Below are positions 3,001 through 52,164 of a stretch of 64,000 bases of DNA, in pieces. Position 1 is the stretch's first letter; each line of letters begins with the position of its first letter. The translations under genes were made by a program, and so were the position numbers. Origin of the DNA: Coniochaeta sp. PMI_546 (Eukaryota > Ascomycota > Sordariomycetes > Coniochaetales > Coniochaetaceae); assembly GCA_021432605.1 (NCBI GenBank), contig MU271148.1, positions 1,061,362 to 1,125,361 of the forward strand. Reading direction: 5' to 3'. The notes below the pieces were generated by a model that was given only the letters and a program-made list of their open reading frames with translations, did no database searches and was not told where the DNA came from.

Positions 3001-6000
3001 CCCGCTCCTGCCGCTCCTTTTCCTCGCGGATCGACTGCTGAATGGCGTACTCCACGTCGAGCTCGGTAGCGAAACGGCCGCCTCTCCGTCCACCTTCTGG
3101 CTTCGACTCGGGCGCAGCAGCGGGTTTGCCGCCTTCTGGAGCATTGCAATGGTTGAAGTGGTCTCGACTCTTGATAGCCGTAGGGTCGTTGGACATGGTG
3201 AAGCGTAGATAGTATTCGTATTTGTCGCGGTAATCACGCCTCCTCTCAGTCTGCTCCGCCAACTTGATGGTATATTCGTCGTTGATCTGGCTGATGATGA
3301 AGGAAGACAACCCTTCCGATGCCTGCTGTAATTTGCGGACCTTTTTACTCTGATACCACGGACGGACGTCAAAGTGCGGAAGGTCATCCAGAGGAGGTGT
3401 AGCCATATACTGCCGCACCGTTTCGATCGTGGCAAAGTCGACCTCCTCAATCTCGGTCTCGTCGTCGTCTTCGTCCGCATGACCAGGTGTAGTCACTCGT
3501 GATGCCTGCTCATCTCCCTCCATAGGGTATGGCGATAGCATGGAGCCTTGTACGTGTGATATGCCATTTGTAGCCGGAAGCGATTTCGGAAGAGGAGCGA
3601 GCACGTCTGCGGCCTCGCCCGCGTCAGGCATATCTGTATCGACTGCAGCATCTGGAACCGCAGGCGCTGTGATAGTCGGAGGAAGACCGGTTTCAACCTC
3701 TTCGACCTTTGGCTGACGTTCTGGCGCTGTGACCTCCGTCGACTGTATCGGGGCTTTCGGCTCGGAGGACAGAGTTGAGGTATGCTCGACAGAAGTCTCG
3801 GGAGCTGACGGCTTGGACGACGCTCCAAGGGTTGTGGTTGCGCCCACCTGCTTCTCAGAGGGCGACAGCATAGGGTGGTCAGAGTCAAGCTCTCCGCCAA
3901 CAGTCTGTCCGTTGACGGAGGGTGCAGAAGCACCAGGCTCAGCGCCAGACTGGTCAGCACTGGTGCTTGAGTCGAGAGCGGACTGCCCAGCCGCACTAGG
4001 CTTGGTGAGCCACTCGCGCACCTTATCCGAAGCGGTGACTCCGCTCTCTGGACCTGGCTGGCGTGACCTGAAGGCTTCGTTAATGCCTTCGCTCATGGTC
4101 GCCAATTCCATGCCGGCATCTGCTACCATCAGCGCCTGACGTAAAGGAAGTTCAGTGTCGGCTTCGTCTGCTTGTCTTGCAAGATTCTCAACCTCCTTCT
4201 GATGCTGTTCAATCTCCCTGTCGAGGAGGAAGCCCATATCCTCGTCCTCAGAGTCCGACTGATCCAGCGCCGGAGAGACTTTCTTCGGAAAGTACGTCAC
4301 TCTCACCGTAGGAACACGCATTCGACTCTTCTTCGGCAATAGCGATTCGGAAGTTGGTTTCGTCGATGGCTGTTGTCGGTCAGCATCTTTATGTTCAGAT
4401 GAGCGCGGCATCGAATCCTCGCGGGCAAGAGCGTGTCTGTTCCGGTCGTCGAGTGAGTGTTGGGATGGTCTCGTGTCCCTCTCGATTGACGCGCGTGCGG
4501 GATATGCGATCCTGTCCGCCTTTGACGGGCCCGCGGTAGGTCTAGAGGTACGAACGATTCTGCGATCGGCGGCCGTCGCTGGCGATTCAGGATGCCCATC
4601 GCTGCTACGAGGGCGCTGTCGCTCCGGTTCCTTGTGATCCGAATACGAAGATTCCTGCGGCCGGCGGTCGAGATCGGGATGTTGATCCGAGTGAGACGAT
4701 TGTGGTCGGAATGCAAGTTGCGGTCTGCCTTGTTGCGACACAAAACTTTGAGATCTCTGCGACTTTGGGGACTCCGGAACCTTCTTAGGAGCTATAGCCG
4801 GATTGATCCACTGCTTACTTGATCTCTGTTGTTTCTGCTGGGCTGCCACAATTTGCGCTCGAGGGGCGGTAGGGATTGGCGGGCTTCCGGGAGGCATAGA
4901 AAGTTTGTGTGATGGACCGGTCGGCGGCAGTCTCTCGTTTGCGGCGGAGAGCCCTGAAGGCCCTGGTTGCGGCACTTGTCGTTCTTCGGTCAGGGCTCGA
5001 GGTCCAGTAGGGGGGGCTTTTCCTGTCAATGACTGAAGGTCGGCATTCGAAGGCTGCCGAGTCGGGACGGACCCAAATGCAGGGGCGGATGGTGCAATGG
5101 GGGGCGGAGACATGTCCTTTGTCGTCGAAACCGAGGGTTCGCGGGTGACTTGTTCGGGTCTCTGCATGGCAACGTCTCGGGCTCTATCAGGTAGTAGTTC
5201 GCGCTCGTTACGGGATTCTCGGTGAAGCATGCGGTCAGGGTCCGGGGGATATCGATCTCCACGGTCGCGGTCTTCTCGCTCGCGGGCCCAGCCACCACGA
5301 TCGTTACTGCGGCTCCGCTGGCCGAAACGGTCGCGATCATCATAAAACCCCCCTCTTCCTCCACCCCGTCCACGATCATAGTCCCCCCGACCGCGGCCTC
5401 GGCCCCGATCACTTCCACGAGAATATCCGCCACGGTAGCCGGAGGGAGCGAACGGTGGATCCGAGTTGGAAGAGCCGGCAGACAAGGGGCCATCTCTCGA
5501 GCCGCGCCGGGCTCGTTCGACATCGACACCAAGCGGAGGATCGCGGTTGTCGCGAAAATCTCTTCCTATAGGTGACCTGCCCCTCCCAAGCAGCGGTGGA
5601 GACGGCCTGCGACCTCGAAAGTTGTCGCGGCCATCACGGTCACGATCCCTCCAGTCCCTGTCGCGTTCTCGACTTCGTTCATCTCGATATGGCGGACGTT
5701 CCCGCGGATCAAAATCTCGGTCCCTTCCGCGGTCTCTGCTGTCATCCCGCCGGTATCCCCGACCGCGTCCTCCTCGTCCACCGCGACCCAGATATCCTCC
5801 GCCGCGTGGTCCGGCCGGGGGTTCAAGAGGCCGGTCTAGCAACGCCTTGGGGCCACGTGGAGGCTCCCGTCCGGCCGGAGGGTCTCGGAAGCCATCGCGA
5901 TTGTTCGGGAAGGGCGAGCGGTTGTCGACAGTCGATCGCCTTCGGTCACCGTCGTTGTACTGGCCTCTGTCGAATGGGGAGCGATCTCTTGGCGAGCGAG

Positions 6001-6187
6001 AGCGACGATCAGGGCCGTCATATCTGCCGGTATACCTGGACCTGTAGGACTGGTGAGCAAAGTGTGGCCCGCGGGGAGACAGGTCACGCCGAGGAGGAGA
6101 CAGAGACCGCCGAGGACCCGGGCCAAAGAAGAACAAGTCGTCAGCACGGGCGTCTCGGCCGTCGTAGTTATATCGGGGCTGCCTCAT
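1..6187 (-). CDS. SNT1: Snt1-like SANT-domain corepressor (3' end cut by window edge)
   Basis: Two SANT/Myb-type modules identify a relative of yeast Snt1 and animal NCoR/SMRT, the scaffold of the Set3-Hos2 histone deacetylase complex that acts in the nucleus. Exons are 1889-6187 and <1-1822, joined over a 66-bp intron (donor GTACGT, acceptor TTGCAG). The first SANT module lies near residues 1110-1165 (core QWGKIASEVPKRDF). The second, near 1395-1440, is split by the intron and reads on as VKNYYVRQK. The N-terminal ~350 residues are very rich in RD, RG and RS dipeptides; the C-terminal part is Pro/Gln-rich and still open at base 1, so the protein exceeds 2000 residues. I start at the ATG at 6187. 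The frame stays open upstream to a TTTCAG at 6258, which suggests an intron in the 5' leader rather than more coding sequence. The protein family is secure, the exact start less so. Confidence 0.88.
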
Positions 6188-26381: not shown

Positions 26382-29300
26382 TCACAATGTAACAGAGAAT
26401 ACATCCACTTGTTGCAGCGCCACGTTGCCTCCAGTGACAGACAAATAGAGGCCATCAGAAGTCTTCGAAGGAAAGATCAAATCAGAAATCACCGCCTCAC
26501 CTGCCCCACCAAATACCTCTACCGAACATTCGTCTACCAACACCCGAAGACGCACTGTTCCACTTGCATCAGGCTGGAGATTCGCAACATGTACCCCACC
26601 CGCAGCCGGGTCGTAGCCGATGTTCCCGCTCGAACCGCGGTCGACTTGTAGTTGCCCGCTAGACTGGACGTATTTGATGATCGTCTGGTCCGACCCTCCC
26701 ACGCGGACTGCGAGAGATAGCGTCGTACCCGCGGCTGGGATAAACGAGGCGCGGATGTCTAACGCCTTGCCATGAATGTCAGAAAGCAGCTTCTGGCCCG
26801 GTGCGATGGTCTGGTTCGATAGAGTGCCGAGCAGCGAGCCTGCAGCATCCAGCTCCGACACAGGCTGCTGCAGAAAAGCCAGTTGGCCGTTGAGCTGCGC
26901 AAGCTCCAGCGTGCGGGGGAACGAGAGCATGCCCTTCCACGTATTCGTCGGGGGGTTGGTTCCGTAGCTGTTCATGACCGCGGCAAGTATCCTCCGCCCA
27001 TCGGAGGCAGGGACGTTCTCCCAGCTCAGCACGCCGTCCCAATCCCGTCCATAGTCAAGCCAGAGTGTGGAGGCAACAACTGGGCGGGCCGTGAAGACGG
27101 TTCCGTTGAACGACCCGGTGATTGCCAGGACACCATTGCCTCCGGCCGGGGACCCATTGGCGGGCGTCAGCAGCAGAACCCAGGTCTTCTGCGTGGTTCC
27201 CTTGATCGGGAGCTCGAAAAAATCGGGCACCTCCCACCCTTTGGCATCCCCGGGAAACCCAGGGATGTCACCCGACCTCAGATCGCTCTTCCACGTCCAA
27301 CTCTTCGCATCGGTGGACGTCCAAAAAGACACCTTGTCCTGTCCTCCATGAGCGAGAATCATGACCCAAGTGCTGGTTGGACTGTGGAAGAAGACTTTCG
27401 GATCCCGCGCCTCCAATCCGCCGGATATGTCGTGCGGTATCTCCTGCGCCCGCGATATAATGGGGTTACCCGCAAATTTGGTGAAGTGTGCCCCTTGGTC
27501 CAAGCTGTACGCAAGTCTCTGATCCTGCACTCCGGTCGAGGGATCATAGCCAGTGTAGAAGGCGAGGTAGGGCGGATTTGCCGTAGTACCCAGACCCGAG
27601 GCATTTGTATCGTCAAACCAGGAGGTTCCCGTAAAACATTGAAGGTTGGTTTCGGCCGCGAGCGCGACAGGTAAGTACTGCCAGTGCAGAAGGTCGGTGC
27701 TGGTGGCATGTCCCCAACTCATGTCGCCCCAGAAATTTCCATTGGGGTTGTGTTGAAAGAAGAGGTGCCACGTGGACCCGATCTTGATCAGTCCATTAGG
27801 CTCGTTCATCCAATACTGCTGGGGAGCAAAGTGGTATGTTGGGCGATAATCATATGCTGCTGTCGAGGTTGGGGAGCTGGACGATGTTCTGGAGGTCGTA
27901 GAAGAAGAGGTGGATGACGTTTTGGAGATGGAGATAGAGCTGGATGAGGGAGTGGATACAACACCGGTACTTGAAAGCGTCGACAAGGCTGTTGAAGACG
28001 ATGCCATGGACGTCTCAGAAGAGCTGAGCGATGTTGTTGATGTCCGGAAAGTACTTGAGATCGACGACGAGATTGTTGAAGCAGTGCTGGAGGACGAGCT
28101 GGAGGACGAACTCGACGAGTTCGAGGATATCCAGGCCGACCCAACTATCTTCGCATCCACGGAGACCCCGCTGGTACCGCCTCCAGTGGAAAAAAGCATG
28201 ACGTTTGTCCCAGAATCGCTTGGAAAGATTTGACAGGTCAATGTAACTTGCCCTCTGCCTCCGAAGATCTCAACAGAGGACCAGTCAAGGAGAATGCGCA
28301 TCGTCAAGATCCCATTGTCACCTGCCGTCAAGGGTGCATGGTAGACACTGGCAAATGTACCGTCAAGACCTGTATTTCCAGACTTAGTCCGGTCGACAAA
28401 GAGTTGTTTCGTGCCGAAGTCATAGCCAACGCGCGTTTGCTGAGACAGGTCGGGGGTGGCCCTGAGGATGAGACCAAACTGGGCCGACGGCGACACGGAC
28501 AAGCGGTCAGAAAAGGAGACTGTAATGTCTAGTGCTTTTCCAGAAAGCTGCAGGGTCTGAGTGCCTTCGGGCACGACGCCCCAGGAGTTTGAGTAGCCGC
28601 TCATTGTCTCTAGTGAGGCCCAATCCTCTCTTGGCTGTTGAACCAGAGTTGCCTTCTGGTTGATGGTCTGGAGCGACAGTGAACGTGGGACTGACATGGC
28701 ACTTCTCCAAGGGGTCGTGGGGATCACACCGCCGTATTGCCAATTATTCATCCACGCAATGTCGACTCGATCCGTTGACGGAAGCCCATTAAAGGTTGCG
28801 GCAGCGTAGAAATCCGGGCCCCAGTCCACCCAGTTGGTCCCATCGTCTCCGAGCCTCGTGTCAGAGAAGGTGATCTGGTCGATCAGAATATGTCCCCAGC
28901 CGCCCGTCAACAGATCAACGATTTGAAGACTTGCATTTTGCCCTACAAAGCCAGCGACATCCCAGCTTTGCCACGATAATTGTTCGCTGTTCGAGCCTGT
29001 AGCCGTACGAACCACCTGGCCTTGTACCACCAGGTTGATGCATTCCTGATTCGGGAAATTACCTCCACCGATGAGAAAGCTGATAGTCCTGTGCGTGATC
29101 TTGATGGCCTTTGATAGGGTCCCCGTGGTAGAATCTCCATTCAGGAACGTATTCACGAGACGGCTACCCAGATACCCAGTTACAGGATTCTGCCCGGCAA
29201 GCGTCCCTTGCGAAGGACTGGCCCCAATCAGGCCACCCGTAGCGTTCCAGCCGAGACTATCAAAGGTCGCAGCGCCTTCAAAATCTTGAAAAGTGATTTC

Positions 29301-30707
29301 GCTTGGGTCCGAGAAAGTGATCTGATCGATGTTGATATGGCCCCAGCCGCCTGTCAAGGAATCGACAATCTGGATGACGCCGACTTGGCCGACAAACGCG
29401 GTTACATCCCATGTCTTGGATACCAGCATCTCGTTGTTTGCCCCAGTTTCACTAAGTACAACCTGGCCACCAATGACTAGATTGATGCATTCTTGACCTG
29501 GGAAATCCCCCCCGCCAATCAGAAAGTTGATGTTTCCATGCGTTATAGTGAAGGATGGTGAGGTGAGTGTCCCAGTGCTTGCATCACCATTCAAGAAAGT
29601 ATTCACGAGACGGCTGCCTTGGTAGCCAGTGACGGTCTGCTGTCCGGGAAGAGTCCCCTGCGCAGGACTTGCACCAGTCAAGCTTCCCGTAGTGTTCCAG
29701 CCAAGGTCAGCGAAAGAGCCGCTGCCCTCAAATCCTTGAAAGACAACGCCGGTGCTCGGAGTGGGGTCCGCGACAAAGCTCGTTCCATCAAAGTCGCCAA
29801 TCACATACTGTGTTCCGGAGCCAACGGTACCGGGCGGTCCGCCAGGGTTGAGGCCGATCTGTGCTACCCATTTGATATTGGTCTCGTCCCCGTCAAGTGG
29901 CAGGGGGAAGATGCTGGGACACTCCCAAACACCTCCAATTGCATTGGTCGGCCCAAACTCGCTGACTTGAGCCCAGGATTTGAGGTTTGTGGAGGTGTAT
30001 ATGAGCAGCTTATGGAGCTGGGCTAAAGCCAGCACCGCAACCCACTTCTGGCTGGGAGTGTGCCAGAAAACGAACGGATCCCGAAAGTTATCATGCTGGT
30101 CTGCATATGCTGGCGGAGGGGTAGGAATGATAGGGTTGCCAGCATCATAGGTGGTCCATGTCATGCCGTCATCCAAACTATAGGCGATCGATTGTGCTTG
30201 CTGGCCACCAGTTACACTCTTTCCACTTGGTAGGCTCTGAGATACTGGGTACTAAAGCAAGAAACGGATTAGAGACAATAAGGCCATGCAGCTCTTTTGT
30301 ATACTTACATATGACGTATACATCGCGACGAGAGGTACAGCTCCATTGACACCGAAGCCGCTTGTGTTCTGAACGTCTGCAACGACAGAGCCCGAGAAAA
30401 ACATCTCGGTGACAGTCCCTGGATAGCCACGGGCTAGAAGTGCCACGGGCTGTTGCTGCCAGTGTGTCAAGTCACCACTGGTTGCGTGGCCCCAAGACAT
30501 GCTTCCCCAAGTAGTCCCGCCTGGATTGTACTGGTAGTACATATGATATACCCCCTTGTAATAGAGGAGTCCGTTTGGATCGTTCATCCAGTTTTTAGGT
30601 GGTGTGAAGTGATACTGAGGACGATAAGTCTCATTGTAAATCTGAGCAGATGCGCACTTGTTGAGAATGATTCCGAAGGCCAAGGCAAGTCGAACTAAAG
30701 CTGCCAT
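26382..30707 (-). CDS. Secreted exo-inulinase / endo-inulinase fusion (two GH32 enzymes)
   Basis: Exons 30309-30707 and 26382-30251 (57-bp intron, phase 0) give a 1422-residue protein with a signal peptide (about 1-21, cut near CASA|Q). Residues ~23-842 are an exo-inulinase like Aspergillus InuE: WMNDPNG with nucleophile D43, FRDPF with D191, and VWECP with acid/base E243. The spacings match Aspergillus exo-inulinase (D41/D189/E241 as I recall). Two ~150-residue beta-sandwich repeats (303-451 and 452-597) are inserted between GTSFVADP and [12 protein letters not shown] Ser/Thr linker (~843-930) leads to a complete endo-inulinase domain (~933-1422): WMNEPNG with E950, ARDPK with D1083, and GWEVPD with E1140. 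The EP variant and EVPD are hallmarks of endo-inulinase, not defects. Inferred role: one polypeptide cuts inulin internally and trims fructose from the ends. No break was found. Confidence 0.93.
28860..29744 (-). repeat. Two tandem ~450-bp coding repeats inside the exo-inulinase domain
   Basis: Each unit encodes about 150 residues with the same landmarks: FEG near the start, [49 protein letters not shown] and [16 protein letters not shown]. The DNA copies are still clearly alike, for example both contain GTATTCACGAGACGGCT (given on the + strand). Similar beta-sandwich inserts are known in bacterial GH32 levanases. A sugar-binding role is inference. Confidence 0.88.
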
Positions 30708-35546: not shown

Positions 35547-38190
35547 ATGGCTCCCTTAGTTAGTTACCGAGGCAGCAATAACGAATCGTCCACGCGAGAA
35601 ACAACAACTTCAGCACAGTGCACAATGGCTTCAGACGATTCCTCTTGCTTTCTGGACTCCGCTTCCGACTTCTCAGGCGGTTCGCCGAGTGCCACCACCC
35701 CGAAAGGGGGGGCCACCGCAGAGTCCGCACCAAGCCATGGATGGAACAACAACGGGAGTCCAGCGAGTTCGAATTGCCCCACGACAATGACCAGCACTCC
35801 GACGATGACGACAGATACAGTCGACAAAAGGAACACTGATGTCCCTGCGAAGCTTATGAGGCGGCGGGCTGCACGAGCTTGTGTCTCGTGCAGGGCTCGC
35901 AAGGTCCGCTGTGACGTTGTCGAGGGAGGCGCGCCTTGTGGCAATTGCCGGTGGGACAAGGTCGAGTGTATCGTTCCAGAAAGATACCGAGGAAAGTGAG
36001 TAACTTTACTTACGTCGTGCTCAAGACATTGCCCTGGCTAACAAAGCTCCATATTGCCGACAGAGATAGAAGCCAGCAGCAGCTATTTCTGAGTCCACTG
36101 AACCAGCCTGCCCTTCCTGATGGCCTGGGAATCACCCACTGTCTTTACTCGCTCAATGACCCCCGCTTCCACATTCATCTCCCTTCCTTTATTCGCCCGC
36201 TACCGGCCAAGATCGCAGCTGAGGATGTTAAGTACCTCCACTGCAAGGGTGCCCTAGCCCTTCCCGAACTCCCGCTGCAGAGCGCACTCATCCAGACCTA
36301 CGTCGAGTACGTACATCCCTACATGCCATCGATGCAGCTTCACGACTTTGTGAATGCCGTAAACTCCACGGACGGTTTGTGCGGTCAGATTAGCTTGTTC
36401 CTCTATCACGCAGTCATGTTTGCCGCGAGCGCCTTTGTGGACATAGAGGCTCTTAGCGAAGCGGGCTATCAAGACCGCAAAGCGGCTCGCAAAGCCTTTT
36501 TCGAAAAGACCAGGGTAAGTTAACCGATGCCTTCTCTGGCCGTTTGTCATATCAGCGATATTCACAAATTCAGTAGCTGCTCTACGAATTCGACTCCGAG
36601 ACGGATCGACTTATCCTAATTCAGGGTCTCCTGCTCATGACGTACTGGTATGAGGCACCGGAGGACCAGAAAGACCCTCGATATTGGATGGGCGCGGCCA
36701 TATCTCTAGCTTACACCGTCGGCCTTCACTGTGACCCCGCCATGATGGGTATGTCGCCTCGGAACCAGAAACTGTGGAAGAGGATATGGTGGTCCTGCTA
36801 TGTGCGAGATCGCATACTCGCTTTGGACATGAAGAGGCCGACGATGATCAAGGATGAGGACTTTGACGTCCCTCTGCTCGAGGAGGACGACTTTGAGCTG
36901 GAGATTCTCCCCCAGGAAAATACTGTCATTTCGCCACGGTGCACGCTGATGCGCGATGTCGGGATGCAACGGGAGCTTGCAATCATGAGTAGCGCCATGG
37001 CCAAATTGTGTGTCTATATCAGTCATGTGTTGAGGTTGCAGTATTCGGTGCTTATCCGCGAAGGGTTGCGCCAGGAGGACAAGGGCAACAGCATCATGAT
37101 ACTCCTCCCCAGGCAAAACTTGAGGAATGACATGGAGGCCGTCAACACAATTAACATAGCGCTACTAGCCTGGGCCGACTCGCTCCCGGCCTGCTGCCAG
37201 TACCGGCCCCTGACGCCATGGGACGTGGAGAATGGTCGAACCACCATTACCGTGCACCGGACACTGCTTCAGCTGGTATACTACAACACCCTCTCTGCTC
37301 TGCATCGCACCAGTTTCCTCCCTTCGTCACCGCATGGCACGCCGAGCGCATCCAGACCAGTGCAGGAGATTTCAAGGCTGAGGGTCTGCAACGCCGCCAT
37401 GAATACGACGCGCATGGTATCAGAGCTTCACCACCTGGGGTTGGACAGGTTCTTGCCCACCACGGGCGTGACTGTAGTTGTACCAGCGATGATTGTCCAC
37501 CTGTTGGAGATGAAGAGTCCTGTCCCCCAAGCGCGGGAAGATGCTTTGAAGCGGTTTGGACAGTGTATGAAGGTCTTGGAGGAGTTGAGCGCAGTTTACT
37601 CAGTTGCCACCTACGCCGCCGACTTCCTAGATGCAAGCTTTGGGAAGGCTGCTGTCGACATGGATGCAGTGTCGTGGTCCGCTATGCCCGGCCAGGGCGT
37701 CAAGAGTCCGCAAATCCAATTCGGCGCGAACATCCTGCACACGGAGGGCGCGCCGTACTTGGCAGCTTCGGATTGTCTGTCCGCGGAGGCCGCGACCCAC
37801 GAAGGGCCACTAATGCGACCTTTTATCATGGACTCCGACATGGAAATCGCGATGTGGCCACTACTGACCGAGAGAGATCTCGAGTCTGCGATCGGCGGCC
37901 TGATGCCGAATCCGAGTGACACGTCGAAGGAGGCACCCCACAACATGGGGCTCATGCAAGGGTATGAACAATGCGACTGGAATGACACGACTGGAACGGG
38001 TTTTCACGTCGACCAGCTGCTTCATTTCCCGTTGGAGGAAGCCAGCAACCATGACGATACGTTTGTGGGCATGGTGGATGCCGGCAACGTCGCTATGACG
38101 CCGGAGCAGGCCTGGACCTGGGCTATGGCTGCTGAGACCGGTCAGGAGTCTAACAGGGCGAATGTAAATGCCCAGATGGCAATGATATAG
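35547..38190 (+). CDS. Zn2Cys6 transcription factor, cutinase-regulator (CTF1-beta)-like
   Basis: Three exons (35547-35995, 36064-36514, 36577-38190; introns 68 and 62 bp) give about 837 residues. The DNA-binding Zn2Cys6 cluster is CVSCRARKVRCDVVEGGAPC followed by GNCRWDKVEC. The fungal-specific transcription factor domain follows: LNDPRFHIHLPSFIRPLPAK, EDVKYLHCKGALALPE, YVEYVHPYMPSMQLHDF, MTYWYEAPEDQKDPRYWMG and LWKRIWWSCYVRDRILALDM. This matches the family of Fusarium cutinase transcription factor 1 beta and the fatty-acid regulators FarA/FarB, so its family relatives act on lipid or cutin genes. Its position inside a fructan cluster is therefore notable; a role there is inference. A second ATG at 35625 has a better Kozak context and may be the true start. 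The C-terminal tail is acidic and may be an activation region. Confidence 0.9.
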
Positions 38191-39245: not shown

Positions 39246-40622
39246 TTAGTCTTTCAAACTCTCAAGGAATCGCTTCCTGATATCCTTGGCGATCTCGATG
39301 TTATTCAGCGCTCTCTTCCTGGACGCTTCAGCCCTCCTCTCCAGCCACTTCTTTCGATCCTCCAAGAATGCCTCGAGCCTCTCTTCTCGCTGCTTGATGT
39401 GCTGTTGTTGCAAGTCCGTCAGAGGCCTGTCCGCGGCTGGCTCTGGAGGGACCTTGATCGTGGGCCTGTTCGGAAGTCTCTCCTCGACAGGTTGAATCTG
39501 TAACTTAGGTCCCGGAAGCGTCTGGTACCAGTATGCAGTAGTAGACCAGTCGTCCCTGAGGTGGTTCGCGTGTCCATGCTCCAGCTTGACCGTGATCTTC
39601 TTGTTGAATCTCACCGGGTCGGCCAGGTGCCATCGGTAGGAGACTTGATGGCCCGGAACATCCTCTTCGTGGATGATGGTTCCGCAGAAAGGATAGGCAT
39701 TCTTCTGCATGCCCCAGCCTTGGCTGAAGTAATCCTCGCCGCCCGTTCCGTGCATGCTTGGCGGCCAGGTATCATCGTCAATGAAGATCATGTCGTCGCC
39801 TTCGCCCCACCAGGTGCCTTGGTGGTGAAGGACAGAGTGGTTGCAGCCGATGAACGTGCCGGAACCTGTGGTCTCTAGGATGGTATAGCCGTCGCCGGTA
39901 AGATTGGGAATTTGTGTTTCGAGGCTGTTGGTCTGCATAGAATTGGGCGCCCAGCCGGCGGTGGGGTTCTCCCGCCGCCAGTGCGCGTGGAAGTAGAGCA
40001 TTTGCTTCGGATCGAAGGGCGCGGGGAGAAGTTCGTAATCGATGTAGAAGTATTGAAAGTACGCATGCTCGCCTTGGTTCTCGATCTCGATACGTGCTCG
40101 CTTGTTGAATGGCATGGTCAGGTAGCAGTTGAAAGCCGCCGACCCGCCGTATTTCTTCTCCTCTGATGGCTTGACGGAGACGGTGAAGGGGAGGGACTGA
40201 AAATTCGCAGCCATGGAATGGCCGAGACAGAAGAAATCACCTATTGGCGCGATGACGCTGGGGGTCTCGGAGTCGTCCCAGTACATCTTGATGATCACCT
40301 TGCGATAGTAGTCCGGGTCACTGTCCTCATAGCTGAGACCCAGCGCATTGTGGATCTCAAGCATGGCAACGCCGGACTTGGAGTAAGGAATAAGGCCAGG
40401 CCCGAGGATACGACGGCATGTTTGCACAAACCAAAGGTGGGTAATCTTTCCGGGGCCCTCGATGTCTGCTAGGACGGCCGTCTCACCTGGCAGCACCACA
40501 AATGCATCCTCATTGAGGCCGGACTGGTCCCAGCTGGAGATTCGAGCGCTACGTGCTACTGTGCGCTGTGCGAGGGACAGCAACAAGTCGCCTTGGAGGG
40601 AAGCGTTGGACGTGGCTGACAT
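39246..40622 (-). CDS. DUF2961 / GH172 glycoside hydrolase, predicted alpha-fructofuranosidase-type
   Basis: The 458-residue intronless protein is a DUF2961 member, now glycoside hydrolase family 172. Characterised members include a bacterial difructose dianhydride I synthase/hydrolase (alpha-D-fructofuranosidase) and D-arabinofuranosidases. Family blocks seen: GETAVLADIEGPGKITHLWF, KMYWDDSETPSVIAPIGDFF, MPFNKRARIEIENQG, YFYIDYELL, GTFIGCNHSVLHHQGTWWGE and HGTGGEDYFSQGWG. E274 (in WGEGDD) and E296 (in GTGGED) match the two catalytic glutamates I recall for the bacterial enzyme (E270/E291). There is no signal peptide, so it should be cytosolic. The last ~70 residues are a charged helix, probably coiled coil (QQQHIKQREERLEAFLEDRK), beyond the usual domain. 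It is divergent from the intracellular GH32 gene, which supports a fructan role. I start at the ATG at 40622. Confidence 0.87.
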   Translation of the reverse strand: MSATSNASLQGDLLLSLAQRTVARSARISSWDQSGLNEDAFVVLPGETAVLADIEGPGKITHLWFVQTCRRILGPGLIPYSKSGVAMLEIHNALGLSYEDSDPDYYRKVIIKMYWDDSETPSVIAPIGDFFCLGHSMAANFQSLPFTVSVKPSEEKKYGGSAAFNCYLTMPFNKRARIEIENQGEHAYFQYFYIDYELLPAPFDPKQMLYFHAHWRRENPTAGWAPNSMQTNSLETQIPNLTGDGYTILETTGSGTFIGCNHSVLHHQGTWWGEGDDMIFIDDDTWPPSMHGTGGEDYFSQGWGMQKNAYPFCGTIIHEEDVPGHQVSYRWHLADPVRFNKKITVKLEHGHANHLRDDWSTTAYWYQTLPGPKLQIQPVEERLPNRPTIKVPPEPAADRPLTDLQQQHIKQREERLEAFLEDRKKWLERRAEASRKRALNNIEIAKDIRKRFLESLKD

Positions 40623-41654: not shown

Positions 41655-43569
41655 ATGAACTCGACAATGAGATCCCTTACCCGGCCGAAGATTCATTTCA
41701 CAGCAAACTCCTGGATCAACGATCCGTGTGCCCCTGGCTACGATCCACGGACCGAGACGTATCATCTTTTTTATCAGTGTAAAGACCATTCTGTGCGTGT
41801 CCTTTCCTACGGTGCTCACGAAAAGCTTACGCAGGTACGCAGGTAATCCGACCGGTTGCGAATGGGGCAACATGTCGTGGGGACACATAGTATCGAAAGA
41901 CATGTTGAGCTGGACGCAAGCTGCAGTTTCGCTAGCACTAGTACCGGATCAAACATACGACTCTGAAGGCGTGTTCACCGGTTGCTGGATACCTCCAGTC
42001 GACGAGCTCGATGAGTCCTTGAGGGTCGCTTACTCCTCGGTCAGGTCGCTGCCGTTCCACTGGAGCATGCCAGTGTACCCTCGCGACGCGGCAGGCCTGG
42101 CGGTAGCAGTATCACGCGACGGCGGCGGGGTTTGGACAAAATCTGCGCGCAATCCGATAATCGCGGGGGAACCGCCCGGCCTGAAGGTCACTGGCTTTCG
42201 TGACCCTTACATCACGGCGCTGCCATCCCTCGACAACGCTCGAGGAATCACTGGGAATGTGCTCTACGGGCTCATATCTGGCGGTATCCAAGGTTCGGGC
42301 CCAACAACCTTTCTATACGAGATCCAACGGGGCGATCCCGAGGACTGGAGATACCTCGGTCCTCTCGTTGATCTGCCAGTGAGGTTCCAGCCCTCCAACA
42401 AGTGGAGTGGCAACTACGGTATCAATTGGGAGTGCACCAACCTCGTGACGCTGCAGGCAGGTCCGGATGTTCGAAAATTCCTGATAATCGGGGCCGAGGG
42501 AGATGTGGAGAAAGATCATGTGAGGTATCACCACAGTTCCGCTGTGGCTCCTTCGCGGACCGTGAGGGCTCAGCTATGGATGTCGGGTTCCCTCGACGCC
42601 ACTGGTGACGATGTCCGATTCCGTTACAAACACGGGGGTTACCTAGACCACGGACCGTACTACGCCGCGAACTCGTTCCTGGACCCCCGGTCTAGCCGTA
42701 CTATCGTGTACGGTTGGATCCCGGAGGAAGACCTGACTGTCCAAGCCGCCAAGGAAAAGGGTTGGAACGGTTCTCTTGCCGTCCCTCGCGAGATCTTCCA
42801 CCTTCGAATACCGAAAGTCCTCGGAGCGCTCCAAAGTGCACTACAAGATATAGCGCCTTTCGAGCTCAAGAGAGAATCGGATGGTTCGACTACGGTTCTC
42901 ACGTTAGGCGTGAGGCCAATCAGTGAACTGGACCAGCTGCATGAGGCAAGTAAGCAGGTGCTGAAACATACGGCTGCCGTGGCACTGCCGAAACCAGACT
43001 CGATCACACGATGGACTATTCTGCAGACCTGCTGGACAGCTTGGGAGCTCGAAGCGACAATTTCCATAAATCCTGGATGTAACGAGGTTGGCTTCCACTT
43101 GCGCCACAACGAGGATCTATCTGTTCGTACAACTGTGACATTCTCCGTCACGACAGAGACCATAGTCGTCGACCGCGACGCATCAAATAACGACCCTACA
43201 ATCAACAAATGTCCGGACGCTGGGCCCTTTACTCTGCTGGCAATGCAAGACCCGAATGGGAATTGCGAACCGGTCTTAGAGAAGCTCCACCTCCGGATCT
43301 TCTCAGATGGTGACATCCTTGAGGTGTTTGCTAATGACCGTTTTGCACTGGCGACCATGGTATATTCTGGCGAACACGGCCTGGGTTCTGGGGGTCTGAC
43401 TGCATTTGCGACGGGGAGCGTGAGCAGCGCAGTCTTTGAATCTGTGACGGTATGGGATGGGCTGGACTTACAGAGTCGGAGACACAGAGACGGGTCCGAC
43501 TTTAACAAGACACAAGCATCACAACCAGAAGACTCTAGCTCAGTCCGGGTCTTAGGTTCCGCCGAGTGA
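41655..43569 (+). CDS. Intracellular GH32 beta-fructofuranosidase
   Basis: Two exons (41655-41778 and 41843-43569, 64-bp intron) give 616 residues without a signal peptide, so the enzyme should be cytosolic. It would release fructose from sucrose or imported fructo-oligosaccharides. GH32 landmarks are SWINDPCAP (nucleophile D23), NMSWGHIVSKD, GFRDPYI (transition-state stabiliser D162) and INWECTNL (acid/base E238). DPCAP rather than DPNG places it in the divergent intracellular fungal branch. The C-terminal beta-sandwich ends in LRIFSDGDILEVFANDRFAL, a standard GH32 block. The splice junction restores FYQCNPTGCEWGNMSWGH, which supports it. Its last 18 bases overlap the end of the convergent Zn2Cys6 gene. 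It shares a promoter region with the GH172 gene. Confidence 0.92.
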
Positions 43570-45430
43570 AGAACAGGCACCTGTCAACCGCTCGGCAAGG
43601 GTGCTGTGAAGTAGCGATAGCGACGCACTGGCCTGCACGATCCGGATGTCGACGGATCTTGTCGACTCCAAGCATGCCATGAGACGCAGCCAGTCCACTG
43701 CGCAGCGATCTCTCAGGCACGGCGTTTCAGCTGCCTTTATGGCCGCCATCGACGTTGTGAATATAGTGGCATAGAGCGTCCAGCGGTTGACGATACAGTC
43801 GCGGATGGATAGTAACATGCTAGGAATTGCTTGAATATATGCGTGAAAGAACCTCTCGCAATGCCTGATCACTTCAGCCGTCGCTGTACCGTCTTGAATG
43901 CACTGGTATACCGCCGGCCAGTATATCGATATCTTGCAACAGTAATACTGCACGCGGAGGAACTGGTGAGGCGGATCCATTGACGTAAGGCTCTGAGGCA
44001 GAGAAAAGATGTCGGGGGTCAGATGCCGGAAGTGAAACATGTCTGGGAGGTAACCGTGCCATTCGTCAAGCTGTAGCTCTAGCTCCAGCGCGACGCCTGG
44101 TGCATATGCGATTTCGCCCTGAGGCGTTCTGCGTATGGCAGTGTAGCAGCGGTGTAGCATACGCCTCATGGCGATCTCGGCGAGGAAGTATGCCGGGCCT
44201 TTATCGGCAATGACACTATCTGTTGATAGATTGCTACCAGGTGAAGCCGTCGTGGCGCTTGCGGGAGAGCCGCCATCGAATTCGAAGTGCCAGGTACGGC
44301 GGCTGTCGGGCAGTGCCATCTTGTCATCGTGGTCCCATATGCCGCTGTCGACCATATCAAGCTGATCACGAAGTTCACTCTCCAGGAGTAGGACCGCCCA
44401 GTAGCACCGCTTGATCTGTTCGTAGAGCTCTCCGGTGCTGTTGTCCGCGCATCTCAGCAGGTTCTGCACCTTGAATGAGGCGATCATCGCATAGTCGTAA
44501 GCCTGGCAAGGTCTAGAAATGCAACAGTGATAGAGGCTCAGAACGATCAACGATTGGACGCTCTCGATGCTGTAGTCGATGATCACGGCCGGCAACGAAG
44601 CGACGGCAGCTTCCAGATAGAGGTCGCTGCTGTTTTCGGAGCGCGACGTGCCTAGCGCATGGTCTTGCTGGACGAGGGCGCCCACTGCAGCGACTGACAG
44701 CACCAAACACGATTCGGGACCTGGTGCCAGAGGCCCCGACATGACGCGAATGTAGCGATCCGAGAAGCCTGGGCGGAACAATGGATACCACACATGGACA
44801 TGCTTGGAGAAGGCACCCAGCGCGGCGAGCGCATTCTGCTGCTGTATGAAGCGGAGCCTCGGCGCATCGCCGCCGCTTACCTGCGGGCTGCTTCTTTCGA
44901 GCCTCACAAGCTCCTGAGCAAACCCGGACCCGAGACCGAGGACGGCCATCATGCAATCGGTCAATAATAGTTGGAAGGGGGATCTCTCCTTGCCAGTAAC
45001 GGCTTGGCCATCCTGGTTGGAGCCCGGATGTACTCCATTCTCCGCGCCAGCGGAAGAAGAAGGCTGGTGTGTTGCAGGCAGAGAGCCGGCGATAAAGTCC
45101 AGCCGGCGATTGATTGCAGCGAGCTCTGCTTCGACTCTGTAGCTGGCTGTGTCAGCAAAAGCAGGATCCGAATCGAGGATCTTGATGAGGAACCTGCCTA
45201 GATGCGGAGCTGGAGTGGTTCTGCTCGTAATAGCACTCAAGTCCGCGGTCGCGACAGTAGGCACACGCAGGTTTCTGCCTATCGCATCTTGTTCTCCTCG
45301 CCCTGCAAGCGTTGCAGGCTGTAGTTGTTCGACTGCGGCTCTTTCTTCGAGGAGTGTCGGGATTATCGGGATTCGAAGTCAATGGACTCATGTCACCCCC
45401 GACCACAAAGGGAAGACCCACCTCTTGCAT
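43552..45430 (-). CDS. Zn2Cys6 transcription factor of the fructan cluster
   Basis: Exon 1 (about 45198-45430) encodes the complete Zn2Cys6 cluster CNACRARRTRC, DRQKPAC, AYCRDRGLEC. Exon 2 (43552 to about 45142) encodes a fungal-specific regulatory domain with VRLERSSPQ, HVHVWYPLFRPGFSDRY, SVAAVGALVQQDHA, YDYAMIASFKVQNLLR and RCYWAVLLLESELRDQLDM. The result is about 607 residues. The two parts lie in different frames, so an intron is required. The best fit is a 55-bp GC-AG intron at 45143-45197; no GT donor keeps the frame and the last cysteine. The gene is divergent from MFS1 with 833 bp between starts and converges on the intracellular GH32. That position makes it the leading candidate for the pathway regulator. 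It is not AmyR/InuR-like in its zinc cluster. A second ATG is at 45391. Confidence 0.85.
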
Positions 45431-46263: not shown

Positions 46264-48071
46264 ATGCCGCTCATACACGGGTAAGCATAACCCGAGAAAT
46301 GATGACAACCCTGACCGTGGACTGACTATCTTACTGTAGCGTCGACTACTCTGTTGTAAACCCTGACAACAAGTGGAAGATCCTTAGATCGCAATGGCGG
46401 TTTGCTCTCTGGGGTAAGCTAGCGTTGCCTGCCCCCACGGCTCGCGATAACGCTCTCTGACAGACTGGGGAATAGCACTCTTGATATCGTCGGGCGTTGT
46501 GATGCAAGGCTTTGACATTGTGGCCGGTGGCCAGCTGGCCGCACTGCCTGCCTTTAGGGAGAAGTTCGGAGTGCCGCAACCGGATGGCAGCTACCTGATC
46601 CCGGCTCACTACCTCTCCGCCTGGAACTCCATCGCCCCCGCTACTGAGATCGTCGCCACCTTTATCTTCGTGCCCCTGCTCGAGAAGTTCGGCCGTAAGT
46701 GGGGTATTCTCGCTGCGTCCCTGATCTCGTGCGCCGGTGTTCTCCTGCAACAGCTGGCACCCGAATGGCGGATGCACTTGGCAGGCAGAGGCGTCAACGG
46801 CATCGCCATAGGCATGATGTTCACCATCTCGCCGCTCTGGATCGGTGAGACCTGCCGCCCGGAGCTCCGTGGCTTCTTTCTTTGCTTCTTCAACACCAGT
46901 ATCGTCTTTGGCCAGTTTGCCATCGTTGTCGTATCCCAAGGCAGCAGCCACATATCCGGCCGATGGCAGTGGTGGCTACCAGTCGTCGCCATGTATTTTT
47001 TCCCTCGTAAGCTCCTCGCGCCTCTGCCACACAGGGGCGACCGGAACACTAACAGCGTCCCTCGTAGTGCTCCTGACAATGATGTGGCCCTTCTTCCCCG
47101 AGTCACCATACTGGCTCGTCCGCCGCGGCCGGCGCGCGGAGGCCAAGAGAGCGCTGCACCGCATACACGGCTTCAAGGACGATGAATACTATGAGATCGA
47201 GGTATTACGCATGGAAGAAGAGATTCGCATCACAAGCGATCTGCATGGGCACATCGACTCCAGACCTCCTCGCAGGCTCCTCGGTATCAACGTGGAACTG
47301 GAAGCCGAATGCTTCGAGGCGACCAACCGCAAGCGCACCTTGACTGCGATCTTCGCTGCTTCGGCTCAGCAGATGATCGGCGCCACCTTCGTGATCGGAT
47401 ACGCGACGTACTTTTTCGAACTCATCGGGATCAGCGACTACTTTGCGGCCTCCATTGCCCTGTACGTCGTCATGCTCGTAGCCAGCATGTCGGCATTCCC
47501 GCTTACCGAGATCTACGGCCGCCGGTTCTTGATCGTCGTCCCTCAGTTCGTGCTATGCTTCATGCTCCTGATCATCGGCATCCTGGGGTGCGTTCCCGAC
47601 AAGACCAAGGCCAGCTGGGGGATCGTTGCCCTGCTCTACGTCTGGGCGCTCATCTACCAGCTCTCCATCGGCGCCACTGGCTTCGTGCTGGCTTCGGAAA
47701 TCGCGACCATGCGGCTCAGGGCGACGACGCAGGGTCTCATCACCATCACCAACTCGGTCTGGGGCCTGATCATGCAGTTTACCGTCCCTTACATGATCAA
47801 CCCTGACGCCGGGAATCTGGGCGGCAAGGTCGGGTTCATATTCTTGGGTACCGGACTGATCGCTGCCGTGGGCGGCTGGTACTTATTCCCCGAGACAAAA
47901 GGCCTTTCCTTCGAGAAGTTGGACGAGCTGTACGCGATGAAGGTGCCTCCGAGGCTGTTCAAGAGGGCCGCAAGCGAGGTTGCTAGCAGGATAAATACTG
48001 TGGATCTTGCTGGCCCGCCAGAGTTTGACTCTACCAAAGAGGGGGTTGTTCGAGTCGCACATGTTGGATAG
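46264..48071 (+). CDS. MFS sugar transporter 1, alpha-glucoside/oligosaccharide permease type
   Basis: Four exons (46264-46280, 46340-46413, 46464-47006, 47068-48071) with introns of 59, 50 and 61 bp give 545 residues in frame. It is a 12-helix sugar porter of the plasma membrane. Landmarks are [104 protein letters not shown] and [20 protein letters not shown]. The overall pattern is closest to fungal maltose/alpha-glucoside permeases (general oligosaccharide-proton symporters) rather than hexose carriers. Uptake of sucrose or short fructo-oligosaccharides for the intracellular GH32 is the natural inference. It is divergent from TF2. The first exon is only 17 bp but has good splice sites. Confidence 0.9.
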
Positions 48072-48625: not shown

Positions 48626-50503
48626 TCATGCAGACACCTCCGCCGTTTCAACAACCGGTCCCCTGACTCCCTTCTCCTCCCTGATCTCCCGGAAAGTAAT
48701 GGTCGGCACCCAGCCGATACTGTTCCTCGCGTCCGAGACCTCGTCGTACAACTCATCGACCTGCTCCAGTGTAAGACCCTTCGTCTCGTAGATCATGAAG
48801 TAGACGAACGCAATGCAGACGAAGCAGCATCCGCCCCAGATGAAGAAGATCTTGGACTGCAGGTTCGCATTGCCCGGGCCGTAGTTCACGAGGTACGGAG
48901 TGCTGTATGCGATGGCCCAGTTAAGCATCCAGTTCGAGGCCGTGGTCATGGAGAGGGACTTGGCGCGGACTTTGAGCGGGAAGATCTCGCCGGTGACGAC
49001 CCTGAGTACCAGAGATATTGTTGTTTAGCTACCGATGCGAACTTTTTATTGACAGGGGACTTGGAAGAAGAGATTTGAAGGTTGCTTACCAGGCAATCGG
49101 ACCCCAGGAAGCGGCGAAGAAGAAGATGTAAATGCAGATAAACGCAATCGCTGCCTTCTGTGCGGGGAGGTTGTGCACAATGATATTCCCGGCAGCATCT
49201 TGACTCGTGGTCGTGGTTCCTAGAATGGCGACGATGAACTGCGAGACACACATGCCGACCGCTCCCCAAAAGAGAACAGGTCTGCGGCCCCATTTGTCAA
49301 TGGCGTACAGTCCAGGCAAGGTCGAGGCGACATTGACGCAGTTGGTGATCAAGCTGATGACAAACGAGTCTTCGAATCCGGAGTTCTTGAAGAATTGCGT
49401 GCCGTAGTAGAAGATAAAATTGATACCAGTGAGCTGCTGCAGAGATTGAAGCAGGCAGCCGGTGAGAAGGCGCTTGAGCAAGTTGCCCTTTAGGCAGTCT
49501 AGGTAAGTTGCCTGCCCGAGACTCTGCTCGTACTCGTGGTTTGCTTGGATCTCGGTGAGCTCTTCGATGATGGCCGGGTGGTTCTCGTCGAGGCGGCGGA
49601 TCTTGGCCAGGGATTTGGTGGCGGCCGGGAGGTTGTCTTGCTTGATGTAGTAGCGCGGCGTCTCGGGCAGGATTATCATACCGGCGATGAGAATTATCGC
49701 CCACGCGAATTGGACGGCTATTGGGATGCGGTAGCTGCCGGTGTTGTTTAGGTCATGTGTGGCATTGTTGACAATAGAGGCCAGAAGAAGACCGATGGTG
49801 ATGGCCAATTGGTAGGAACCGACAATGACACCGCGGATCCATTTCGGGGCAGTTTCGGACTGATAGAGAGGGACTAAGATGGAGTTAGTCAGTGTTGATG
49901 GACTACTCGGCTCTCTCTCATGGCTCAAGGTTGGGAGGAATGTGCTTCAACAACAGGGGCTGGAGAAGGTGACTGATTCTTTTACTTACTGATGGCAGAG
50001 ATTAAGCCAACTCCGAATCCGGCAAAGAACCGACCAGCCAGAAAGAGAGGAATACTGACGGCTGCCGTTTGCAGTATGACTCCGAAGATGAACACGACGG
50101 TGGATGCAATCAGACCCAAACGACGACCGATAGCGTCGGCAAGGGGCGCAGCAGAAAGGGCTCCGAAGAAGGTTCCAGCTGACAGGATAGAGACAATGGT
50201 GGCTGATTGAGATGCAGTAACATCCAGATGACCTGTCGAGTTTCTAAATCCCGTGGAAAAGAGGTCCTGCCAGTAGGGCATTGCAAGTATACCGCCAATG
50301 GTGCCAGTGTCGTATCTGTTATATTGTCAGCCTACCTCAATGGCAAGAAGCAGAAGCCAGCAAGTTTCGAGAGCCTGGTAGTCTAGAGTCTAGGTGTAGA
50401 CATACCCAAAGAGCACACCGCCAAAGGCGACAAACAGCCCAATGGCAATGGCAGGCCATGACTTCCCCGAGATGTCTGTCGGCTTCTTGAGTTTCAACCC
50501 CAT
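48626..50503 (-). CDS. MFS sugar transporter 2, hexose type
   Basis: Four exons (50406-50503, 49990-50315, 49090-49873, 48626-49001) with introns of 90, 116 and 88 bp give 527 residues. Joins restore standard motifs: GGVLFGYDTGTIGGILAMPY, then SAIIPLYQSETAPKWIRG, then WGPIAWVVTGEIFPLKVRAK. Other sugar-porter signatures are DAIGRRLGLIAS, PETPRYYIKQ, QSLQQLTGINFIFYYGTQFF, DKWGRRPVLFWG and YETKGLTLEQVDELY. It belongs to the fungal hexose-proton symporter branch (HXT/MSTE-like). It could import fructose and glucose released by the secreted enzymes. It is divergent from the levanase-like GH32 gene, with 1.66 kb of shared upstream sequence. The start used here (MGLKLKKPTD) has no in-frame ATG between it and an upstream one at a poorer context. 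Confidence 0.92.
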
Positions 50504-51651: not shown

Positions 51652-52164
51652 AGGTTACATGCAACATCGAGAGCGGGGAAATCCACAATATCCCTGGATG
51701 CGTGAAAGATCTGAACCGCTAACAGAGTACCAGTTGCGCTCGAACCGAGCTCTTGGTATGGGTGATGGACAACGGCAAGTAGAATGTACCTTGGTCGGAT
51801 CCGAAAATATTCGTTTTGCAGCTTTAGCCTCGTGGATATGAAAACTCGCCATCCAGGGGACCCTCTGGTTGATCATGGCTACCTCGGTTTTGGTACACAT
51901 GAGCATCACTAGCGCTCGGGATTTCGTCGATGCCAGAGCTGGGTGTAAGATAGGGACTATTGAGCGATTTCAGACTTCTCATTCGACTCAGCGTTGTTGT
52001 AGATGACTGGAGAGGATAGCGAAGATTCTTTCTTATTAACCTCTATGTTGAAGTATAAAGATGACCTTCCATCTTGCTCCGTTCCCTCTTCTGCTATAGC
52101 CAACCTCACCTCCTCTTGTTTTCTATCAGCCTTCTCACAAGTGTTGTTCCGTTTAGTTTACACG

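Follow-up and report, generated by a model that had tools for sequence, protein, structure and literature searches.

A Coniochaeta gene predicted to encode a secreted fusion of an exo-inulinase and an endo-inulinase

We analyzed a 64,000-nucleotide stretch of the genome of the ascomycete fungus Coniochaeta sp. PMI_546 (contig MU271148.1, positions 1,061,362 to 1,125,361), referred to here as the window and numbered from its first letter. It carries a gene in which an exo-inulinase domain and an endo-inulinase domain share a single reading frame. The first-pass annotation of this DNA had placed such a fusion at positions 26382 to 30707 without stating a strand. Those coordinates are right; the gene lies on the minus strand and is read from 30707 to 26382. 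By sequence, it lays out an InuD/InuE-type exo-inulinase with two inserted modules, a Ser/Thr linker, and an Inu2-type endo-inulinase, all behind one signal-like N terminus. The parts of the gene are as follows, with residues numbered in the spliced protein.

26382-30707, minus strand: whole gene, probably secreted exo-inulinase/endo-inulinase fusion, 1,422 residues, about 151 kDa unglycosylated
30309-30707, minus strand: exon 1, 133 codons, with a hydrophobic signal-like peptide (about residues 1 to 21) and the exo nucleophile motif WMNDPNG (D43)
30252-30308, minus strand: intron, 57 nucleotides, GTAAGT...CTTTAG
26382-30251, minus strand: exon 2, a single open frame of 1,289 codons plus stop, linker included
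29748-30644, minus strand: first part of the exo-inulinase GH32 propeller, residues 22 to 301, intron included, with D43, D191, and E243
29298-29747, minus strand: inserted module 1, residues 302 to 451, modeled as a jelly-roll and, by analogy with Penicillium InuD, probably inulin binding
28851-29297, minus strand: inserted module 2, residues 452 to 600, 66% identical to module 1
28116-28850, minus strand: rest of the exo-inulinase propeller and C-terminal beta-sandwich, residues 601 to 845
27855-28115, minus strand: Ser/Thr linker, residues 846 to 932 (87 residues, 46 Ser and 18 Thr), without a dibasic site
26385-27854, minus strand: endo-inulinase GH32 domain, residues 933 to 1422, with the motifs WMNEPNG, RDP, and WEVPD (E950, D1083, and E1140)

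Unspliced, the minus-strand frame contains one internal stop codon, which lies inside the 57-nucleotide intron, and splicing yields the 1,422-residue protein. We picked this intron by its consensus ends from 22 formally possible in-frame splice pairs. The choice is backed by a second fusion gene, described below, that has an intron at the same position. The N terminus is hydrophobic (maximum hydropathy, 2.37), with a cleavage site judged by eye to lie near residue 21, and these features suggest that the fusion protein is probably secreted.

A Pfam search with the exon-2 protein of the fusion placed Glyco_hydro_32N (PF00251; 405 bits) in three stretches, with its exo copy divided in two by the modules, and Glyco_hydro_32C (PF08244; 206 bits) in two. 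Each half thus has both a GH32N and a GH32C domain and belongs to GH32, and the second fusion likewise gave GH32N and GH32C twice. The signature of the exo half is WMNDPNG, RDP, and WECP, and that of the endo half is WMNEPNG, RDP, and WEVP; the Glu of WMNEPNG is presumably the nucleophile of the endo half. All six residues that had been proposed as the two catalytic triads (D43, D191, and E243; E950, D1083, and E1140) are present in the numbering of the spliced protein. The proposal that their spacing equals that of the Aspergillus enzymes also held, the spacings of 148/52 residues (exo) and 133/57 residues (endo) being identical to those in the 1Y4W and 3RWK sequences, respectively. These two PDB entries were also the best matches: 1Y4W for the exon-2 part of the N half (491 bits) and 3RWK for the C half (770 bits, whole query covered). 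The exo half is identical to 1Y4W at 59.9% of 504 aligned residues and the endo half to 3RWK at 68.0% of 487, compared with 38.3% of 478 between the two halves of the fusion. PDB names 1Y4W "exo-inulinase" and 3RWK "Inulinase"; we take them to be the exo-inulinase of Aspergillus awamori and the endo-inulinase of Aspergillus ficuum. The papers on the sister entries 1Y9G and 3SC7 agree with these labels.

Separate phylogenetic placement of the halves had been named beforehand as a check on the fusion. We built a GH32 tree from 15 sequences (PDB sequences and fetched loci) and reran it with 13 after removing two long rows, a yeast invertase fragment and the third GH32 of the window. In both trees the exo halves of the two fusions joined 1Y4W and the endo halves joined 3RWK, each at 100/100, rather than all falling in one exo clade. 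A single clade of all four halves was rejected (approximately unbiased test, p-AU = 0.000226; 13- to 15-row tree). The endo half of the window was placed beside 3RWK and not beside the endo half of the second fusion (89-93/87), with the alternative not rejected (p-AU = 0.142); the fusion could have given rise, by splitting, to some of the standalone Aspergillus endo-inulinases. The N half therefore has the triad motifs, the spacing, and the grouping with a characterized enzyme that are expected of a fungal exo-inulinase, and the C half has those expected of a fungal endo-inulinase. From these sequence features we infer that the N half releases fructose from nonreducing ends and that the C half releases inulo-oligosaccharides from inside chains. 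A single protein can thus soundly be expected both to make chain ends and to consume them.

The exo half holds something that the first-pass annotation did not mention. Residues 302 to 600 form two tandem modules of about 150 residues inside the catalytic propeller, an insertion that falls between chain positions 274 and 280 of 1Y4W. Searched separately, the modules matched no curated family in Pfam (E values up to 5) or in NCBIfam (E values up to 1), and the PDB sequences yielded one match (E value, 0.032), an entry whose name resembles that of a designed protein. An Imm5 match overlapping module 2 in the Pfam search with the whole exon-2 protein (E value, 0.029; 15 bits against a cut-off of 25) was below threshold and was taken as chance. 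The AlphaFold model of module 1, made from a 20-sequence alignment, was all-beta with a predicted local distance difference test score (pLDDT) of 88.7, and its fold matches suggest a jelly-roll. PMC7959777, citing Moriyama and Ohta 2007, reports that InuD of Penicillium sp. TN-88 has an internal inulin-affinity region. By analogy, the modules are probably this region in two copies and are probable inulin-binding modules. Fungal and oomycete genome papers mention CBM38 as an inulin-binding family, a possible lead for these modules.

When the module alignment was used to scan the genome_contigs collection, 43 loci were returned, and one of them, L001 (NYXK01000007.1), has the complete fusion layout in the same order. 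Its product is 65% identical to the window fusion over 1,398 aligned residues and keeps both triads. Identity is 76.4% in the first part of the exo domain and 62.3% in the second, 60.0% and 60.8% in the modules, and 72.0% and 60.5% in the endo domain, and it falls to 37.3% over 67 aligned residues in the linker. The L001 intron, of 53 nucleotides, follows the same codon as its 57-nucleotide counterpart, exon 1 being 399 nucleotides long in both genes. Despite its sequence drift, the L001 linker is still Ser/Thr-rich (of its 72 residues, 25 are Ser and 15 are Thr), and an additional Ser/Thr stretch lies ahead of the first module. A linker that has drifted yet stayed Ser/Thr-rich between conserved halves is the pattern expected of a true linker joining two selected enzymes. 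Module identity was 66 to 68% within one gene, 61 to 63% between the same positions of the two fusions, and 66% across positions. The module tree joined both copies of L001 (98/94, with a bootstrap that had not settled), and an arrangement grouping the first modules together was not rejected (p-AU = 0.0685).

The L001 contig is labeled as part of a deltaproteobacterial metagenome-assembled genome (MAG), but it is fungal DNA. Its fusion gene is adjoined by a Zn2Cys6 (Zn_clus)/Fungal_trans gene. Of 10 other frames of the contig that we scanned, three encode a phospholipid flippase, a ferric reductase, and a WSC protein; the others gave a less informative family or none. The MAG as a whole gave 25 Fungal_trans matches (24 over the cut-off), spread over many contigs, compared with none in 14 control genomes. 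As a separate observation, a record labeled Deltaproteobacteria that holds fungal contigs must be strongly contaminated or misbinned.

The other module-bearing loci differ from the two fusions. A relative of the module lies between two parts of an exo-like GH32 domain in 35 of the 43 loci (34 of 42 without L001), and those 34 come from Streptomyces, Lentzea, Actinomadura, one member of the Bacteroidota, and one of the Verrucomicrobia. The module stands ahead of the GH32 domain in five frames from four loci, two of them in L021 and one each in L038 to L040. Counting GH32 domains in the module-bearing frame gave two in L001, one in 37 loci, and none at the cut-offs used in 5 (L024, L032, L041, L042, and L043). 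In 33 of the 43 loci, all actinobacterial by their titles (L002 to L015, L017 to L020, L022, L023, L025 to L031, L033 to L037, and L043), the module is split by another copy of itself, a nested insertion and not a tandem. The nested pair was seen within the GH32 domain in 32 of these 33, L043 being cut by the end of its contig. A search of 100 genomes from the phylum of one Streptomyces genome with the endo-inulinase profile (E value of 1e-40 or better) gave 10 matches in 6 genomes, none of them with two GH32 domains in one frame. Viral contigs, scanned with the alignment of the endo part, yielded no relative: 29 stretches matched a pattern and none was confirmed.

The linker had been described as a Ser/Thr stretch of some 90 residues, close to the 87 measured. 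The reading frame is open across this region, whereas each of the two remaining forward frames of the coding sequence contains 46 stops. Within residues 841 to 950 there is no splice donor of the form GTRWG, the one form tested. Nor does a start codon with a signal-like stretch precede the endo half: in residues 822 to 960, Met occurs only at 882 and 948, and the maximum hydropathy is 1.24, compared with 2.37 for the N-terminal signal. The open frame and the missing second signal, together with the same fused layout in L001, support the claim that the exo and endo parts belong to one polypeptide, and the second fusion gene is the best evidence for it.

Secreted fungal enzymes with long unstructured linkers may be proteolysed there, and the product might be a precursor that is cut in the Ser/Thr linker after secretion. 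Two ordinary inulinases would then result in a 1:1 ratio, and the fusion would serve coexpression instead of tethering. The poor conservation of the linker sequence between the two fusions would suit such a precursor, but the linker of neither contains a dibasic (Kex2-type) site. Moreover, its dense Ser and Thr residues suggest that it is presumably O-glycosylated, and O-glycosylation usually protects linkers. We therefore regard cleavage in the linker as unlikely.

One of the heads could instead have changed its job, for instance with sucrose or levan as the main substrate of the exo half or with binding as the main role of the endo half, in which case the protein would be no true exo-plus-endo inulin system. 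Sucrose and levan are also common substrates of exo-inulinases, and the activity of both heads is deduced here from similarity. Against this, both fungal fusions retain their triads, motifs, and spacings, and the halves are 57 to 68% identical to solved exo- and endo-inulinases, and a changed job for either head seems to us distinctly improbable.

That two adjacent genes or transcripts, or a misassembly, merely look joined is scarcely credible: Aspergillus niger inuE and inuA/inuB are separate genes and the exo- and endo-inulinases of Penicillium lanosocoeruleum are separate proteins, but the open linker frame and the absence, in the intervals given above, of a GTRWG donor and of a Met with a hydrophobic signal before the endo half speak against it, and because L001 encodes the same layout on an independent fungal contig, 65% identical and with the same intron position, this explanation is largely excluded.

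The fusion gene has neighbors that may bear on its role. Other features of the window are the following.

36577-38187, plus strand: gene with a fungal transcription factor domain
39246-40622, minus strand: GH172 (DUF2961) gene, its product homologous to difructose dianhydride I synthase/hydrolase and, judged by eye, without a signal peptide
41655-43569, plus strand: second GH32 gene, head to head with the GH172 gene, apparently with one intron and judged by eye to lack a signal peptide
43555-45378, minus strand: gene with a fungal transcription factor domain (29 bits; cut-off, 23)
46451-48068, plus strand: sugar transporter (MFS), two overlapping open frames that are probably one gene
49089-49946, minus strand: sugar transporter (MFS) frame
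52003-54243, plus strand: third GH32 gene, whose N-terminal module looks like those inserted in the fusion

The GH172 gene product matched Bifidobacterium alphaFFase1, a difructose dianhydride I synthase/hydrolase, at 474 bits; it is 51% identical, with 203 identities among the 398 residues aligned in four of five alignment blocks. Eleven of the 12 catalytic and subsite residues of alphaFFase1 that we compared are identical in it, E270 and E291 included, the difference being Asp in place of Asn272. For the second GH32, the nearest PDB entries carry the names extracellular invertase, beta-fructofuranosidase, and fructosyltransferase. The catalytic domain of the third is closest to PDB entry 1UYP, "beta-fructosidase," which we take to be from Thermotoga, and its module is 38% identical to its nearest module relative and sits on a very long branch. 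Sugar transporter frames occur at three places within positions 36577 to 59392. Judged by these sequence matches, this interval is probably a fungal fructan-use neighborhood, with two further GH32 genes, GH172, transporters, and two regulators. Sites of the form CGGN8CGG, which we take to be an InuR-like motif, gave no signal in the window, numbering 38 against 38.8 expected. The neighboring genes mark the window as fungal DNA, with Fungal_trans, HET, SDA1, and further eukaryotic families among them. A 1,442-codon frame at positions 1862 to 6187 (minus strand) carries a Myb DNA-binding domain, and its length equals that of the unspliced fusion frame by coincidence.

Taken as a whole, with the steps of tethering and neighborhood included, the best explanation of the locus, and one we hold with good confidence, is that the gene makes one secreted, two-headed inulinase. 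The inserted modules would hold the enzyme on inulin while the endo head cuts inside the chains and so exposes new nonreducing ends within reach of the tethered exo head. On its long flexible linker, the exo head might then strip fructose from these ends before they diffuse away. The neighboring transporters may import the resulting fructose, inulobiose, and other inulo-oligosaccharides, and inside the cell the neighboring GH32 and GH172 proteins would process the imported sugars, with GH172 possibly interconverting inulobiose and difructose dianhydride I. Synergy between exo- and endo-inulinases supplied as separate enzymes has been reported (Liu et al. 2016, cited after PMC7843476). Since this synergy is documented for the free enzymes, a tether would be expected to raise the local concentration of the partners.

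Several results weigh against the two-headed inulinase as just set out. The inulin-binding role of the modules rests on analogy. A Foldseek search with the model of module 1 ranked a MAM domain first, with reelin and gingipain adhesin domains also high; carbohydrate-binding CBM35 jelly-rolls came next after MAM (E values of about 1e-4), and template modeling (TM) scores were about 0.4 to 0.57 throughout the top rows. The predicted structure of the exo half with its modules (pLDDT, 42.8) was too poor to place the modules relative to the active site. The neighbors of the fusion are not shared with the 106-kb contig of L001, where 2 of 15 window queries matched, namely, the fusion and the third GH32, both on the L001 fusion gene itself. 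GH172 was not matched in the MAG of L001, in a search run without a positive control and in a record whose fungal part may be incomplete.

Beyond the two-headed inulinase itself, one could picture an old, selected, tethered fructan machine, with an inulin-gripping exo head and a leashed endo head, that perhaps feeds a cluster storing or carrying inulobiose as difructose dianhydride I by way of GH172, some Aspergillus endo-inulinases having split off from it. We offer this wider picture as speculation and think it doubtful.

The layout combines known catalytic families in a way that we did not find described in the open-access literature among the matches listed. No natural exo-endo inulinase fusion appeared in the titles and abstract openings there, and no tandem or double-GH32 protein was found, the one match to such wording being about gene order and not about a protein. 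The main text of a review of microbial inulinases from 2026 uses none of the terms "two catalytic," "bifunctional," and "fusion." The remark in the first-pass annotation that no fungal enzyme with this layout had been described agrees with that literature, subscription papers and fungal proteomes lying outside its scope. Unannotated copies of the fusion are likely to exist in public fungal genomes. What emerges is a natural protein, in at least two fungal lineages, with exo-inulinase, endo-inulinase, and probable binding modules on one chain, the same enzymes that engineers mix or coimmobilize. It makes testable whether a covalently tethered end-maker and end-eater outperform the same two enzymes free in solution.

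The neighborhood can be compared with the difructose dianhydride I operon of Bifidobacterium dentium, which PMC8605356 describes as GH32, GH172, an ABC transporter, and a LacI regulator. The window, too, has GH172 beside GH32, with sugar transporters and regulators nearby. Its genes differ in being fungal and in lying on both strands, with no operon; they include a secreted fusion inulinase, and the GH172 protein is 51% identical. The same paper shows 16 fungal GH172 proteins in its tree and proposes that Aspergillus fumigatus AFUA_5G00510 is the difructose-anhydride synthase studied in that fungus in the 1980s. With a fungal GH172 gene lying near that of a probably secreted inulinase, the window hints at the physiological setting in which difructose-anhydride enzymes such as AFUA_5G00510 may work.

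The N half resembles exo-inulinases of the InuE/InuD type (1Y4W and InuD) in its motifs, its triad spacing, its 60% identity to 1Y4W, and its 100/100 grouping. Its internal insertion corresponds in kind to the inulin-affinity region of Penicillium sp. TN-88 InuD, a match drawn from the descriptions and not from a comparison of sequences. The fusion differs from this type in adding two tandem modules and, after the 87-residue linker, a whole endo-inulinase. The C half shares with endo-inulinases of the Inu2/InuA type (A. ficuum 3RWK and 3SC7) the motifs WMNEPNG, RDP, and WEVPD, the 133/57 spacing, 68% identity, and 100/100 grouping, but it forms the C-terminal half of a larger protein and has no signal peptide of its own. 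The bacterial module-bearing GH32 enzymes carry the module between the same two GH32 stretches as the fusion does, but they have a single GH32 domain per module-bearing frame, and the module is nested in 33 of the 43 loci. Endo and exo activities have also been brought together by design: engineered coimmobilization or mixing of exo- and endo-inulinase is reportedly the subject of Chen et al. 2022 (listed in PMC10992622) and of Liu et al. 2016 (as described in PMC7843476). Those are man-made mixtures or scaffolds, whereas the Coniochaeta gene and its relative in L001 present the pairing as a natural covalent fusion.

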